A stretch of DNA of 64,000 bases from Bacteroidota bacterium (GTDB lineage Bacteria; Bacteroidota; Bacteroidia; Sphingobacteriales; Sphingobacteriaceae): NCBI GenBank assembly GCA_018828585.1, contig JAHJVW010000012.1, positions 1 to 64,000 on the forward strand, in the 5' to 3' direction. The notes beneath the pieces were generated by a model that saw nothing but the letters and a program-made list of their open reading frames with translations, made no database searches and was not told the origin of the DNA. A program made the position numbers and the translations under genes. Positions 6,966 through 37,714 of this stretch are shown one piece after another (positions within the stretch are counted from its first letter, which is position 1; every line of letters starts with the position of its first letter).

Positions 6966-8102
6966 TTAATCGTCAGTGTTGCCAATAGCTACCTTTTTCT
7001 TTTTTATACCCAGTTTAGTTGCAAGCTTATTTTGTTTCGCTTCTTCATCACCCAAGATAATTCCCCATGGTTTTAAACTTTCAACGCGGTCGAAAATAAT
7101 CTTCAACACGGCAATAACGGGTATAGACAAGAACATCCCAGGAATGCCCCAAATCATTTCGCCAACAATAACACCTAATACGGTAATCAATGCGTTAATT
7201 CTTACTTTAGACCCAACAACCAGCGGCAATAAAACATTACTATCTATGAGGTGGGTGACGACAAGCGTTATCACGACCCAAATAACTTTTGTGCTTTCTG
7301 GCGAAGTACCTAGAGTAACCACAGAACTGATAATAAGTGCTGTAAATATACCGATGTAGGGAATAATGTTAAATAGTCCTGTGATGAGTCCAAGTAGAAT
7401 CGCATAGCGAACATCCATAATGGAGAATATTACACTTATGCTTATGGCCACAATTCCCATTTCTATAAGGAGTCCGATGATATATTTTCGGATCATATAC
7501 TGTACTTGTTCGATGATTTCATGAACGATCGATTTGTTTTCGTCAAGAAATACCGATTGAAGGAATTTCATGATAAGTCGGCGATACAAGAGAAAGAAAA
7601 AGGTATAAATAAAAGTAAATACAAGAAATAGAAGAATAGATGTTAAAGAAAGTACTGTGGCACCGAAAACTGCTGTATTATCAGCAGAGATCACTTTGTT
7701 GGCAGCTGTATTTACTACTCGTAGTTGTTTTCCTCTTGATATGTTAAAATGATCCTGAATCCAACCTCTAAGTTCCCATAAGGTTTTATTGATTTGTTCC
7801 TGAAACTGTGGCCATTCTTTTGCTAGATCTGCTATTTGAGAGCCAATAACGAAAATCAATGACCCAATGAAGAACAGTAGAAGCAATACCGACAGCATGG
7901 ATGCGGCACTTCTTGGCATGTGTAATTTAGATTCGAAAAATGCTGCAACAGGTAATAACAATATTGAAAATAGACAAGAAAAAATAAGCGGTGATAAAAT
8001 TTCCTTCCCAATAATGACCAAATAGCCAATTGCAAAGAGGCTGAACAGTACGCAGGTCAGCTTAATATAAAAAGGAAGATTATTATAAGTCTTTAAATCC
8101 AT
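6966..8102 (-). CDS. AI-2E family transporter (UPF0118 membrane permease)
   Basis: About 378 residues starting at MDLKTYNNLPFYIKL; an upstream ATG would add 19 residues and puts the start far from the first membrane segment. There are paired hydrophobic helices near the N-terminus, a hydrophilic middle domain (about 70-150), then several membrane helices. The conserved GLITGLFNIIPYIGIF and DSNVLLPLVVGSKV...PVIAVLKII segments are typical of this family. Members include the TqsA/YdiK group and Na+/H+ antiporter-like proteins, so the transported substrate cannot be deduced. The C-terminus is short, lysine-rich and cytosolic. Confidence 0.88.
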   Translation of the reverse strand: MDLKTYNNLPFYIKLTCVLFSLFAIGYLVIIGKEILSPLIFSCLFSILLLPVAAFFESKLHMPRSAASMLSVLLLLFFIGSLIFVIGSQIADLAKEWPQFQEQINKTLWELRGWIQDHFNISRGKQLRVVNTAANKVISADNTAVFGATVLSLTSILLFLVFTFIYTFFFLLYRRLIMKFLQSVFLDENKSIVHEIIEQVQYMIRKYIIGLLIEMGIVAISISVIFSIMDVRYAILLGLITGLFNIIPYIGIFTALIISSVVTLGTSPESTKVIWVVITLVVTHLIDSNVLLPLVVGSKVRINALITVLGVIVGEMIWGIPGMFLSIPVIAVLKIIFDRVESLKPWGIILGDEEAKQNKLATKLGIKKKKVAIGNTDD

Positions 8103-33644: not shown

Positions 33645-35072
33645 ATGGAAAAAACTTGTACAAGTGTATGGGCAAACTGTCTCCAAATCATAAAGGATAA
33701 TATCCCGACCCAAAGTTTTAAAACTTGGTTCGAACCCATCATTCCTTTAAGGTTAGAGGAAAGTGTTTTAACCATTCAAGTACCAAGTTTATTCTTTTAC
33801 GAGTGGCTCGAAGAGCATTATGTGGGTTTGTTAAGAAAAACCATTAAAAAACAACTAGGAGATACGGGCAGATTAGAATACAACATCGTTGTCGAAAAAT
33901 CATCTTCTAAAATGCCCTACACAACTAACCTTCCATCAAGTGGTAACGGAGCCGAAGGAAAAAGTCAATCTATTCCAATGCCTATGGCTTTGAATAAAGA
34001 CATTAAAAATCCTTTCGTAATTCCGGGATTAAAGAAACTACAGGTAGATCCACAACTGAATCCAAACTATACTTTTGAGAATTTTATTGAAGGAGATTGT
34101 AACCGTTTAGCTCGCTCTGCAGGCTATGCTGTGGGTGCAAAACCAGGCGGTACTTCTTTTAATCCATTGATGATTTATGGCGGTGTTGGCTTGGGTAAAA
34201 CTCACTTGGCGCAAGCCATCGGAAATGAGGTGAAGAAAACCATGCCGGATAAGTTGGTAATTTATGTTTCTTGCGAAAAATTTTGCCAACAGTTTGTAGA
34301 TTCATTAAAGAACAATACCATCAACGATTTTGTGAACTTTTATCAAGCCATGGATATCATTATCATGGATGATGTACACAACTTCGCCGGTAAAGACAAA
34401 ACACAAGATATCTTCTTCCATATTTTCAACCACTTACACCAATCAGGTAAGCAATTGATTTTAACTTCTGATAAACCACCTAAAGATTTAGCAGGTTTAG
34501 AAGAGCGGTTATTATCCAGATTCAAATGGGGATTATCCGCAGATTTATCAGTTCCTGATATGGAAACCCGTATGGCTATCTTGAAAAAGAAAATGTATCA
34601 AGATGGTATCGAATTACCAAACGATGTCATTGAATACGTTGCCAACAACATTGATAATAACGTGAGAGAGCTGGAAGGAGCGATGGTTTCTTTATTGGCA
34701 CAATCTACTTTAAACAAGAAAGAGATTGATTTAGCGTTAGCTAAGCAGATGTTGAAGAATTTCATCAAAAATACCAGCAAAGAAATTTCTATGGAATACA
34801 TTCAGAAATTGGTTTGCGAGTACTTTGAAGTACCGGTAGAAATGGTGAAATCTAAAACCCGTAAACGCGAAATTGTACAAGCTCGACAGATTTCCATGTA
34901 TTTAGCGAAAAGCCATACCAAAACATCTTTAAAATCTATCGGAGCTTTCTTTGGTGGCCGTGACCATTCAACCGTGATTTACGCTTGCCAAACAGTAGAA
35001 GATTTAATTGATACCGATAAGAAATTTAAAGCTTACGTACACGATATTCAGAAAAAGCTTAAAATGAGCTAA
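33645..35072 (+). CDS. dnaA: Chromosomal replication initiator DnaA
   Basis: 475 residues with the four DnaA domains: N-terminal oligomerisation (CLQIIKDNIPTQSFKTWFEP), a short linker, the AAA+ ATPase with Walker A GGVGLGKT at about 179 and Walker B IIIMDDVHN, and the C-terminal DNA-binding domain ending GGRDHSTVIYA (DnaA signature). It opens the origin and coordinates replication. Monocistronic, with a strong terminator downstream. The 260-base gap before it has ACT/GGT-rich simple sequence (33574-33614) and no gene. Confidence 0.97.
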   Translation: MEKTCTSVWANCLQIIKDNIPTQSFKTWFEPIIPLRLEESVLTIQVPSLFFYEWLEEHYVGLLRKTIKKQLGDTGRLEYNIVVEKSSSKMPYTTNLPSSGNGAEGKSQSIPMPMALNKDIKNPFVIPGLKKLQVDPQLNPNYTFENFIEGDCNRLARSAGYAVGAKPGGTSFNPLMIYGGVGLGKTHLAQAIGNEVKKTMPDKLVIYVSCEKFCQQFVDSLKNNTINDFVNFYQAMDIIIMDDVHNFAGKDKTQDIFFHIFNHLHQSGKQLILTSDKPPKDLAGLEERLLSRFKWGLSADLSVPDMETRMAILKKKMYQDGIELPNDVIEYVANNIDNNVRELEGAMVSLLAQSTLNKKEIDLALAKQMLKNFIKNTSKEISMEYIQKLVCEYFEVPVEMVKSKTRKREIVQARQISMYLAKSHTKTSLKSIGAFFGGRDHSTVIYACQTVEDLIDTDKKFKAYVHDIQKKLKMS

Positions 35073-35093
35073 ACACCAATTTTCTGAACCGAA

Positions 35094-35130
35094 AATCTCG
35101 TTAGGTCATTCCTAACGGGATTTTTGTTTT
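35094..35130 (+). terminator. Terminator of dnaA
   Basis: AATCTCGTTAGG / CCTAACGGGATT stem (12 pairs with one G-U) and a T-rich tail. Confidence 0.85.
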
Positions 35131-35144
35131 TAACAGATACTGTC

Positions 35145-35365
35145 ATGCTGAATTTATTTCAGCATCTCTTAGCACAAGCCACTGCTAAAAGATATCCCGA
35201 AATACTTGCCTGCGGCAGGCAGTAATTCTGGATGACAAATTTGATTATTTTTTAGAAAGATGCTGCTGTACTGCTATCTCCCGATAGTCCGGCTTTCCGT
35301 TACAAGTCCTCGCTTCATTTCATTTTGCCGTGGGCTTTTTACTTCAATACGGTTTATTTAACTAA
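35145..35365. repeat. Composite of dispersed repeats downstream of dnaA
   Basis: No gene in this stretch. 35143-35236 is bounded by TGTCAT and ATGACA. It contains GTCATGCTGAATTTATTTCAGCATCTC, shared with 6684, and a GC-rich hairpin TGCCTG-CGG-CAGGCA (35207-35221). 35278-35320 has CCGATAGTCCGGCTTTCCGTTACAAGTCCTCGC, nearly the reverse complement of 37013-37046. Such mobile-like intergenic elements are common in this group. Their mobilising enzyme is not in the window. Confidence 0.65.
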
Positions 35366-35391
35366 GTTTTACTTTTCTATTTATAAATTGT

Positions 35392-35400
35392 TTATCCACA
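35392..35400 (+). promoter_or_regulatory. Single consensus DnaA box TTATCCACA
   Basis: A perfect nine-base match 320 bases downstream of dnaA and 38 bases upstream of the next gene's promoter. Only one is seen, and there is no cluster or AT-rich unwinding element that would define an origin. Confidence 0.45.
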
Positions 35401-35437
35401 TCTGTTTCAATACTTTAACTTTTAGTTGTTTTTAATT

Positions 35438-35445
35438 TATATTTG
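35438..35445 (+). promoter_or_regulatory. -7 promoter element TATATTTG of the cyclodeaminase-ImmA/IrrE gene
   Basis: Perfect TAnnTTTG ending 20 bases before the ATG at 35466, indicating that the fusion gene is transcribed on its own. Confidence 0.55.
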
Positions 35446-35465
35446 TTAAAAAGTATAATTAATAG

Positions 35466-36878
35466 ATGAATTTACTTGCTATTACTGCAGAAGAACTTTT
35501 AGAGAAGTTTGGTTCAGGGGGGCATAAGCCTGGTTCTGGAAGTGCCGCAGCATTACAAGGGATGCTTTCAGCAAAACTGTTGATTACAGTTATTAGTTTG
35601 ACAAATGAACCTAAAAGAAGAGAAAAATATTCTCAAGCTCTACCAGAACTTCTTAAAATGCAGACTCGCATTAAAGAATATATTTTTCCTGAATTAGCTA
35701 AGTTTTTTCAAGAGGATTCAATTCAGTTTGGAAAAACTATTCGAATTCGTAAAAAGCGGAATTTAAATGACAACCCAATAGGTAAAAATATTTTAGCTAG
35801 AGAAGCTTTAAAAGAGCTTAAAACAGCAATTGAAATCCCTCTTGAAATAGCTGAATTATGTGTTGAATTAGCTGAAATTGGGAATTTTGTTTTTGATAAT
35901 GCGTTTCAAGGAGCAAGAGGAGACTCTCAAGTGGCTTTAAGTGGAGCTGTCTCTGCATTAGGAGGTTGTTTATCTATAATTAATTTAAATCTACTTTCTT
36001 TCGGTAGCGATGAGTATAGTTTTATTAAAGATGCGCTAGAGAAAACTGATACTTTAAAAATTGAACATGTAAGGTTAAATGTAACTTCTAATTCTAAAAT
36101 TGAAATTCTAGAAAATGAGTTGAAAGATAAATTACCTCTTTACGATGATATAAATAAGTTAATATCAAAGTTCAAATCTAAATCTAAACTATCCGATTCT
36201 GAAATTGAAAACAGTGTAATAGAACTCCAAAATCTAATCTGGAAAAACAGAAAGGAAATTTGGAAAAAGGAATCTCCAGAAAAGCCAATTGAAATATTAA
36301 AGCCAGGTGTGATATTTAAAAAGGCTTTGGGATTTGATTTCGGTGAAATTAATGACCTTGGATTATCAGCTGAATTAAACAATGAATACGAAATTGCAGG
36401 ATTTATTGACCAGAAAAATAAGATAGTTCTTATTTCAAAAGTATCTAATAAGCAAACTCAAAATTTTACGGCTGCTCATGAGTTGGGGCATGCAATGTTA
36501 CATAAACAAGCTGTCATGCATAGAGACAGACCAATGGACGGCTCAGTTCTAAACTCTAATCGTAATGTTCAAGAACTACAAGCAGATAAGTTTGCTAGCT
36601 ATTTTTTAATGCCTAGTAAAATTGTTACTGAAGTCTTTCATGAATTATTTTTAGTTGAAAAATTTACTATCAATCCGGATACTGCATTTTATTTGACACA
36701 AGATGGTGCTGAAAATAAGTTAAGGGATCAATGTAAAAATTTGAGAGGTCTTTCAAGAAAATTGGCATCAACAGACTCATATAGAGGTAAATCTTTTAAT
36801 TCTATTTCTAAATTATTTAACGTTTCAGATGAAGCAATGGCTATTAGACTTGAAGAACTTAATCTTGTGGAATTTTAG
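35466..36878 (+). CDS. Fusion of a cyclodeaminase/cyclohydrolase (FTCD_C) domain to an ImmA/IrrE metallopeptidase
   Basis: 470 residues. Residues about 5-185 are a helical FTCD_C-like domain: HKPGSGSAAALQGMLSAKLL at 20-39 corresponds to the PGGGS..A motif of formiminotetrahydrofolate cyclodeaminase, and GARGDSQVALSGAVSALGG at about 150 matches the D-x-x-A region. Residues 200-270 are charged and probably coiled. From about 280 an ImmA/IrrE (DUF955) zinc peptidase follows, with H338-E339-L-G-H342 and ELQADKFASYFLMPS (370-384) supplying the third ligand. No helix-turn-helix or phage repressor partner is adjacent. A sensor domain controlling a protease is an inference; the substrate is unknown. 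Confidence 0.85.
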   Translation: MNLLAITAEELLEKFGSGGHKPGSGSAAALQGMLSAKLLITVISLTNEPKRREKYSQALPELLKMQTRIKEYIFPELAKFFQEDSIQFGKTIRIRKKRNLNDNPIGKNILAREALKELKTAIEIPLEIAELCVELAEIGNFVFDNAFQGARGDSQVALSGAVSALGGCLSIINLNLLSFGSDEYSFIKDALEKTDTLKIEHVRLNVTSNSKIEILENELKDKLPLYDDINKLISKFKSKSKLSDSEIENSVIELQNLIWKNRKEIWKKESPEKPIEILKPGVIFKKALGFDFGEINDLGLSAELNNEYEIAGFIDQKNKIVLISKVSNKQTQNFTAAHELGHAMLHKQAVMHRDRPMDGSVLNSNRNVQELQADKFASYFLMPSKIVTEVFHELFLVEKFTINPDTAFYLTQDGAENKLRDQCKNLRGLSRKLASTDSYRGKSFNSISKLFNVSDEAMAIRLEELNLVEF

Positions 36879-36984
36879 CTACCCTTTACTTTTCTTAGAG
36901 TTAAAACAAGAATCTCTAAGAAATCAAAAATAGAAAATAGTCTACCAACTCAATATATTGCAAAAACGTAACTAAAATAAACTG

Positions 36985-37050
36985 GATTGAAGTGTAAAGC
37001 CCAAAGCGTAGCGAGGACTTGTAACGAAAAGCCAGACTATCGCAACCGAT
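36985..37050. repeat. Dispersed intergenic repeat (inverse copy)
   Basis: GATTGAAGTGTAAAGCCC followed by AGCGAGGACTTGTAACGAAAAGCCAGACTATCG, the reverse complement of the element at 35278-35345 with few differences. The remaining gap 37060-37165 is an ACT-rich simple tract (cttccgtcttcggtcctcag, aactcataactccaaactct) with no coding sign. Confidence 0.65.
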
Positions 37051-37162
37051 AAAAACAGAACCCTGCTTTTCTAAACCTTAGACTTTTTACTTTACACTTT
37101 CAACTATCTAATTTAAACTTCCGTCTTCGGTCCTCAGTCTCCCAACTCATAACTCCAAACTC

Positions 37163-37714
37163 TCAACTCAAAACCCCCATCTTCAAAAAAGCATAAAGTA
37201 AACCAGTAACATGCAAAGCTTGAGGAATTTCGTTTTTCAAGAGCATTTCTTTGATCTCATCAATAGAATAGAACTCGATATCGATGTCTTCATGCTCATC
37301 TAAATCCTGTTCTTGTACTTTGATGCCACCTTTGGCGAGGTAGCAATAAGTAACGTTATTGGACGTGGCAGGATTGGGATAAATGGTAGAAACCAATTCA
37401 AAATCTTCGAAGAGGTAACCAGTTTCTTCCAGCAGTTCTCTTTTGGCAGCATCTTGTGGGTTTTCGTCGCCATCAATTACGCCGCCTGGAATTTCTAAAG
37501 AAATAATATCTCCACTATGGCGATACTGGCGCACCATGATGACTTTTTCATCCTCAGTAATGCCAACAACATTTACCCAATTAGGATATTGCAACACATA
37601 ATATTCGCTTGCGATGCGGCCATCAGGTAATTCGCATTCGTCAACACGTAAAGTCGCCCACGGTTTTTGAACCAGATACTTAGAAGAAAGGGTTTTCCAT
37701 TTAGATACACTCAT
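37163..37714 (-). CDS. Nudix hydrolase, ADP-ribose pyrophosphatase-like
   Basis: 183 residues. The Nudix box is complete: GGVIDGDENPQDAAKRELLE then ETGYL (GX5EX7REUXEEXGU). The preceding VRQYRHSGDIISLEIPGG is typical of the ADP-ribose/ADP-sugar pyrophosphatase branch, which hydrolyses ADP-ribose to AMP and ribose-5-phosphate. Substrate assignment within Nudix proteins is tentative. Single gene; starts MSVSKWKTLSSKYL. Confidence 0.88.
   Translation of the reverse strand: MSVSKWKTLSSKYLVQKPWATLRVDECELPDGRIASEYYVLQYPNWVNVVGITEDEKVIMVRQYRHSGDIISLEIPGGVIDGDENPQDAAKRELLEETGYLFEDFELVSTIYPNPATSNNVTYCYLAKGGIKVQEQDLDEHEDIDIEFYSIDEIKEMLLKNEIPQALHVTGLLYAFLKMGVLS

Follow-up and report, generated by a model that had tools for sequence, protein, structure and literature searches.

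A Conserved FTCD_C–Peptidase_M78 Fusion Family in Scattered Bacteroidota, With a Member Just Downstream of dnaA

The window analyzed here, a 64,000-nt stretch of a Bacteroidota genome, carries just downstream of dnaA a gene whose product joins a domain related to folate enzymes (FTCD_C) to a zinc peptidase of the ImmA/IrrE type (Peptidase_M78, hereafter M78). According to our analysis, this gene belongs to a conserved family and is not a chance fusion: in scattered Bacteroidota, the FTCD_C domain, a linker, the M78 core, and a helix-turn-helix (HTH)-like tail are passed on jointly as a single protein. The reading that we favor, which seems to us about evenly balanced between right and wrong, is that the product is a horizontally moving, single-gene, sensor-gated ImmA/IrrE-type zinc protease, most likely acting in phage defense or a related stress response.

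The protein of 470 amino acids is encoded on the forward strand by an open reading frame (ORF) with an ATG start. As the original prediction had it, the gene follows dnaA and encodes an FTCD_C–M78 fusion. Both Pfam matches are far above the curated cut-offs: FTCD_C (PF04961) covers residues 8–183 (77.1 bits, cut-off 24.5; E = 1.8e-21; profile positions 2–171 of 182), and Peptidase_M78 (PF06114) covers residues 313–393 (49.2 bits, cut-off 22; E = 5.7e-13). The profile search of the N-terminal half against FTCD_C had been set beforehand as a test able to refute the prediction, and its score proved far above background. A sequence search of the PDB matched the N-terminal half to the methenyl-THF cyclohydrolase FchA (7vg4) and the C-terminal half to CapP (7t5t), and a search with the family profile additionally retrieved FTCD (1tt9) and an IrrE orthologue. 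The predicted motifs PGSGSAAALQG (residues 22–32, N-terminal) and HELGH (338–342) were confirmed, and ARGDS occupies residues 150–154. The gene and its parts are as follows:

35466–36878, forward strand: FTCD_C/linker/Peptidase_M78 fusion gene (ORF, Pfam, orthologues)
35487–36014, forward strand: FTCD_C-like domain, residues 8–183, of a divergent clade, with the PGSGS loop and the ARGDS motif (Pfam, PDB search, alignment, tree)
36015–36296, forward strand: linker, residues 184–277, fast-evolving (mean pairwise identity 30%)
36402–36644, forward strand: Peptidase_M78 core, residues 313–393, with HELGH at 338–342 and E370 within ELQADKFA (Pfam, PDB search, alignment)
36786–36875, forward strand: conserved HTH-like C-terminal tail, residues 441–470 (FNVSDEAMAIRLEELNLV; 43% of columns invariant in eight members)

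By homology, E370 is probably the third zinc ligand. The linker is probably helical, its helices being taken from a low-confidence model, and the tail was labeled HTH-like by its motif and by analogy with the layout of PprI (PMC10904395).

Protein and profile searches of ~1,200 distinct genomes, all of Bacteroidota, revealed eight intact full-length fusions besides the window copy (genomes G035, G206, G122, G284, G445, G764, G803, and G1026) and two broken ones (G281, locus L046; G353, locus L048), each split between reading frames. The fusion is therefore rare (11 of the ~1,200 genomes, 2 of the 11 with broken copies). It had been foreseen that the idea would fall if the fusion turned out to be widespread and already assigned a non-regulatory function; besides its rarity, no such assignment was found in the papers searched. 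The nine intact genes are distributed over five families and two classes; the identity of the other eight to the window protein, where measured, ranges from 39 to 57% (57% for G035, about 45–47% for G206, G122, and G284, and about 40% for G445). HELGH, E370, and the tail motif MAIRLEEL are common to all eight aligned members, and in G1026 HELGH and the matching ADKFA motif are readable. Mean pairwise identity is 51% in the FTCD_C domain, 50% in M78, and 48% in the tail, compared with the linker value given above. The proteins of G764 and G803 have 80% of their residues in common despite coming from genomes of different families, which suggests that horizontal transfer lies behind their likeness; since dN for this pair is 0.13 and dS 1.8 (the latter near saturation), the protein is under purifying selection. 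None of the plasmid and phage records carried the fusion, two plasmids giving matches to M78 alone; viral contigs likewise gave only M78-type matches, at five loci, and a scan of genome contigs with the single protein found one relative, with M78 only. The frame splits in G353 and G281 could reflect either decay or sequencing error.

In the sensor-gated protease that we envisage, the FTCD_C half would be a dimer- or oligomer-forming part that no longer serves as an ordinary folate enzyme. It would bind a small or polymeric anionic signal, such as a folate polyglutamate, a nucleotide, or a nucleic acid, at a site remodeled with the invariant residues H20, R95, R98, and R151. Binding would then be relayed via the linker and switch on the M78 active site, in a manner comparable to PprI and CapP, which are activated by single-stranded DNA and cleave a repressor (PMC10904395); the role proposed for the FTCD_C half, that of a sensor opening the M78 site, follows this analogy. 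The substrate would be encoded elsewhere and might be a host protein, as in abortive infection, or a distant regulator. A narrower version, which we consider possible but doubtful, is a single-gene abortive-infection protease, in which the one-carbon-derived domain senses an infection-induced change in folates or nucleotides and unleashes the peptidase, whose target would be a protein of the host or of the phage.

The M78 half passes the profile cut-off and contains HExxH and a downstream acidic zinc ligand, and we would place the protein, as far as its sequence allows, among the ImmA/IrrE-type proteases, although the repressor partner that is usual for this group (not a strictly defining trait) was not found. 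No repressor or HTH partner is adjacent to the gene or fused at its N-terminus in the window, and none recurs at the other inspected loci, which agrees with the earlier statement that no HTH repressor stands beside it. Neither is there a CapH-type repressor beside the protease in the window or a recurring one at the other loci; among the loci inspected, no gene of any kind recurs next to the fusion copies. The lack of a recurring repressor neighbor makes it probable that the substrate is encoded at another place, or that a host protein is attacked directly.

The same peptidase might nevertheless act as a classical ImmA/IrrE regulator: by cutting a repressor encoded elsewhere, it would switch on stress or mobile-element genes, and the FTCD_C domain would sense the one-carbon or nucleotide state. 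The conserved HTH-like tail and the PADLOC comparison of the M78 core, in which CapP was closest (66.7 bits over 79 residues) and RmrA next, would suit such a regulator, as would the repressor cleavage described for PprI and CapP (PMC10904395). However, a repressor gene recurs beside none of the inspected copies, and a gene that moves alone between lineages would be stranded from a host-encoded repressor; we regard this alternative as tentative. PprI/IrrE of Deinococcus resembles the window protein in its M78 zinc peptidase, in the HTH segment after the peptidase, and in control aided by a further domain (PMC10904395), but differs in that the domain at the N-terminus of the window protein is FTCD_C-like and no partner recurs beside the gene. 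CapP, a protease associated with CBASS (cyclic oligonucleotide-based antiphage signaling systems), is the top PADLOC match of the core and is also found in defense settings; however, the likeness is confined to the core, and CapP works with the CapH repressor, whereas no CapH-like gene is present here. Single-chain XRE-ImmA proteins of the RmrA/spr1629 type likewise combine a peptidase and a regulatory domain, but theirs is an N-terminal DNA-binding HTH, whereas here it is FTCD_C-like.

The sensor-gated reading also draws on the divergence of the FTCD_C half. In a tree of 43 domains (8 fusions, 2 stand-alone genes, and 33 FchA/FTCD sequences), the 10 domains of the fusion clade are split from the 33 FchA/FTCD sequences by a branch with 100/100 support and long stems; the 8 fusions cluster together (89/96) and have a single origin in 90% of bootstrap trees. 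The two stand-alone members without a peptidase are a 245-residue protein in G753 (L081:8064–8801) and a gene in G648 (L049, near 7577–8100) that contains an in-frame TGA and adjoins ABC-3C genes. With the NCBIfam FchA equivalog model, whose cut-off is 275 bits, the window protein scored 44.5, and the domain is therefore a relative of FchA, not an FchA. Nine aligned clade members were compared at the positions that vary little or not at all among the 33 enzymes. All nine carry other residues at G24, M41, P98, and N171, and eight do so at N44; P22, G23, G25, D84, and N175 are retained. H20, S24, R95, R98, R151, G152, and S154 are invariant within the clade. The N-terminal domain is homologous to FchA (7vg4) and FTCD (1tt9/2pfd), but it lies outside the clade of the 33 enzymes, scores below the equivalog cut-off, has enzyme-invariant residues replaced, and is attached to a protease. 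Ordinary cyclodeaminase activity of this half is doubtful, and its ligand site appears to have been remodeled and to have become more basic. The terms “folate sensing” and “ligand-gated” of the original prediction are not supported as written; the half is divergent and has lost several enzyme-invariant residues, so that its ligand may not be a folate.

A bifunctional metabolic protein, in which an active cyclodeaminase/cyclohydrolase is coupled to a processing or housekeeping peptidase, would account for the strong overall FTCD_C match, for the five retained residues, and for the source genome having no second FTCD_C gene. It is difficult to reconcile with the replacement of four enzyme-invariant residues in every aligned clade member, with the long stem branch, and with the lack of the fusion in 17 congeners; moreover, no folate or histidine gene was seen beside the copies, as judged by eye among partly annotated neighbors. 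A simple enzyme of this kind was judged unlikely.

Several fusion copies are set among defense or toxin genes, which is suggestive for the phage-defense reading. In G122, a dCMP deaminase-family protein, a DUF6791-ThiF protein, and an XRE-M78 (RmrA-like) gene, the last ~4.4 kb away and non-adjacent, lie near the fusion (L044:10984–15759) and form a probable defense cluster; the deaminase is of the PADLOC dCTPase type, and the dCTPase model found its match among the neighbors. A type I restriction-modification (RM) system and PrrC are found near the G445 copy, FRG/PDC-S15 and AbiH near that of G206, and a Ppl-like protein with an IS200-type transposase near that of G764. When the neighbors at ten loci were compared with PADLOC models (E ≤ 1e-20), using other parts of the same contigs as controls, 87 neighbor genes matched 45 models and 92 control genes matched 9. 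As to the suggestion of stress response or phage defense, the setting of copies elsewhere fits it; the window copy lies among housekeeping-like genes.

The neighborhoods also bear on another idea, that the protein is one half of a toxin-antitoxin module or an accessory to it, with the partner encoded elsewhere. MazF and Fic near the G803 copy, MazF near the stand-alone G753 gene, and an MqsA/Panacea-type antitoxin near the G035 copy are in line with it, and COG2856 (ImmA-type) proteins are covered by a toxin-antitoxin survey (PMC6929052); with no recurring partner and most copies solitary, we find it improbable. A chance fusion or annotation artifact, which the lack of the gene in the 17 congeners searched might suggest, is scarcely credible and is refuted by the orthologues, as nine intact genes from five families and two classes share the architecture and the protein is under purifying selection in G764/G803.

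Several points weigh against a sensor-gated defense protease. The PADLOC enrichment is uneven and no more than suggestive, since many of the 45 models come from a single type I RM locus; 25 of all 45 models are listed, and one control region also contains a PDC-S15 gene. The window flanks (dnaA, the NUDIX gene, and others) are housekeeping-like, with no defense island, and the broken copies in G281 and G353 fit defense genes and dispensable genes alike. The residue argument uses invariance and not assigned catalytic roles, and the pocket and linker arguments are drawn from conservation, the single-sequence fold prediction having a pLDDT (predicted local distance difference test) of 34. Ligand, substrate, function, and protease activity are all predicted from sequence.

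Within the genus, the gene is an accessory, recent arrival: it was found in 1 of 18 genomes, and its G + C content at third codon positions (GC3) is 0.19, compared with 0.37 for dnaA. G017, whose DnaA is 99% identical, has nothing in the slot that separates dnaA from the NUDIX gene, and in G015 (DnaA 100% identical) this slot holds an unrelated DUF4238 gene on the opposite strand with the same right flank (L086:3137–4126; no PADLOC match). The dnaA–NUDIX interval (window 35072–37163; L086, L087) is therefore an exchange slot in the genus, found empty, with DUF4238, or with the fusion; since its contents vary among congeners, dnaA marks this slot and is not a functional partner. Other copies of the fusion sit elsewhere, and that of G284 likewise lies amid housekeeping-like genes. 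The insertion has the following extent:

35372–37064, no strand assigned: approximate insertion relative to the empty G017 slot (blastn of the dnaA downstream region against congeners)

Both domains were already known. What appears new is that the two are joined in a conserved mobile family whose FTCD_C domains form a divergent clade; no paper on an FTCD_C-ImmA fusion came up in a literature search leaving out most subscription journals. Mobile elements, DNA-damage responses, and CBASS are switched by proteases of the ImmA/IrrE type, and the signal sensed is known for few of these proteases. If the proposed reading is true, a sensor derived from a folate enzyme would give this class a metabolic input and could link phage defense to one-carbon or nucleotide metabolism. 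Being small and without a recurring partner gene, the protein can be tested as one gene. Lit of Escherichia coli is a single-gene zinc protease in phage exclusion; it offers a possible analogy of function only, and no FTCD_C domain is known in it.

The surroundings of the gene contain three further short features:

35438–35445, forward strand: -7-like box TATATTTG (sequence; without a recognizable -33 element)
35282–35314, reverse strand: left arm of an inverted repeat, 33 nt, bracketing the fusion gene
37010–37042, forward strand: right arm of the inverted repeat, 33 nt, bracketing the fusion gene

The gene had been credited with its own promoter. The box TATATTTG is indeed present, but no TTTG stands at the -33 spacing, and the window holds no more full promoter patterns of the Bacteroidota type than chance predicts (3 found, 3.9 expected); a conventional Bacteroidota promoter is thus unsupported. 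It had also been described as flanked on both sides by dispersed repeats, and this holds in part: a short element near 35141–35172 is repeated at several other sites in the genome. More striking is the 33-nt inverted repeat that brackets the gene itself. Its arms are 94% complementary, and its 25-nt core pattern is nearly unique, the genome holding a single further match, a weaker one with 2 mismatches. This inverted repeat may have a bearing on how the slot gets filled.
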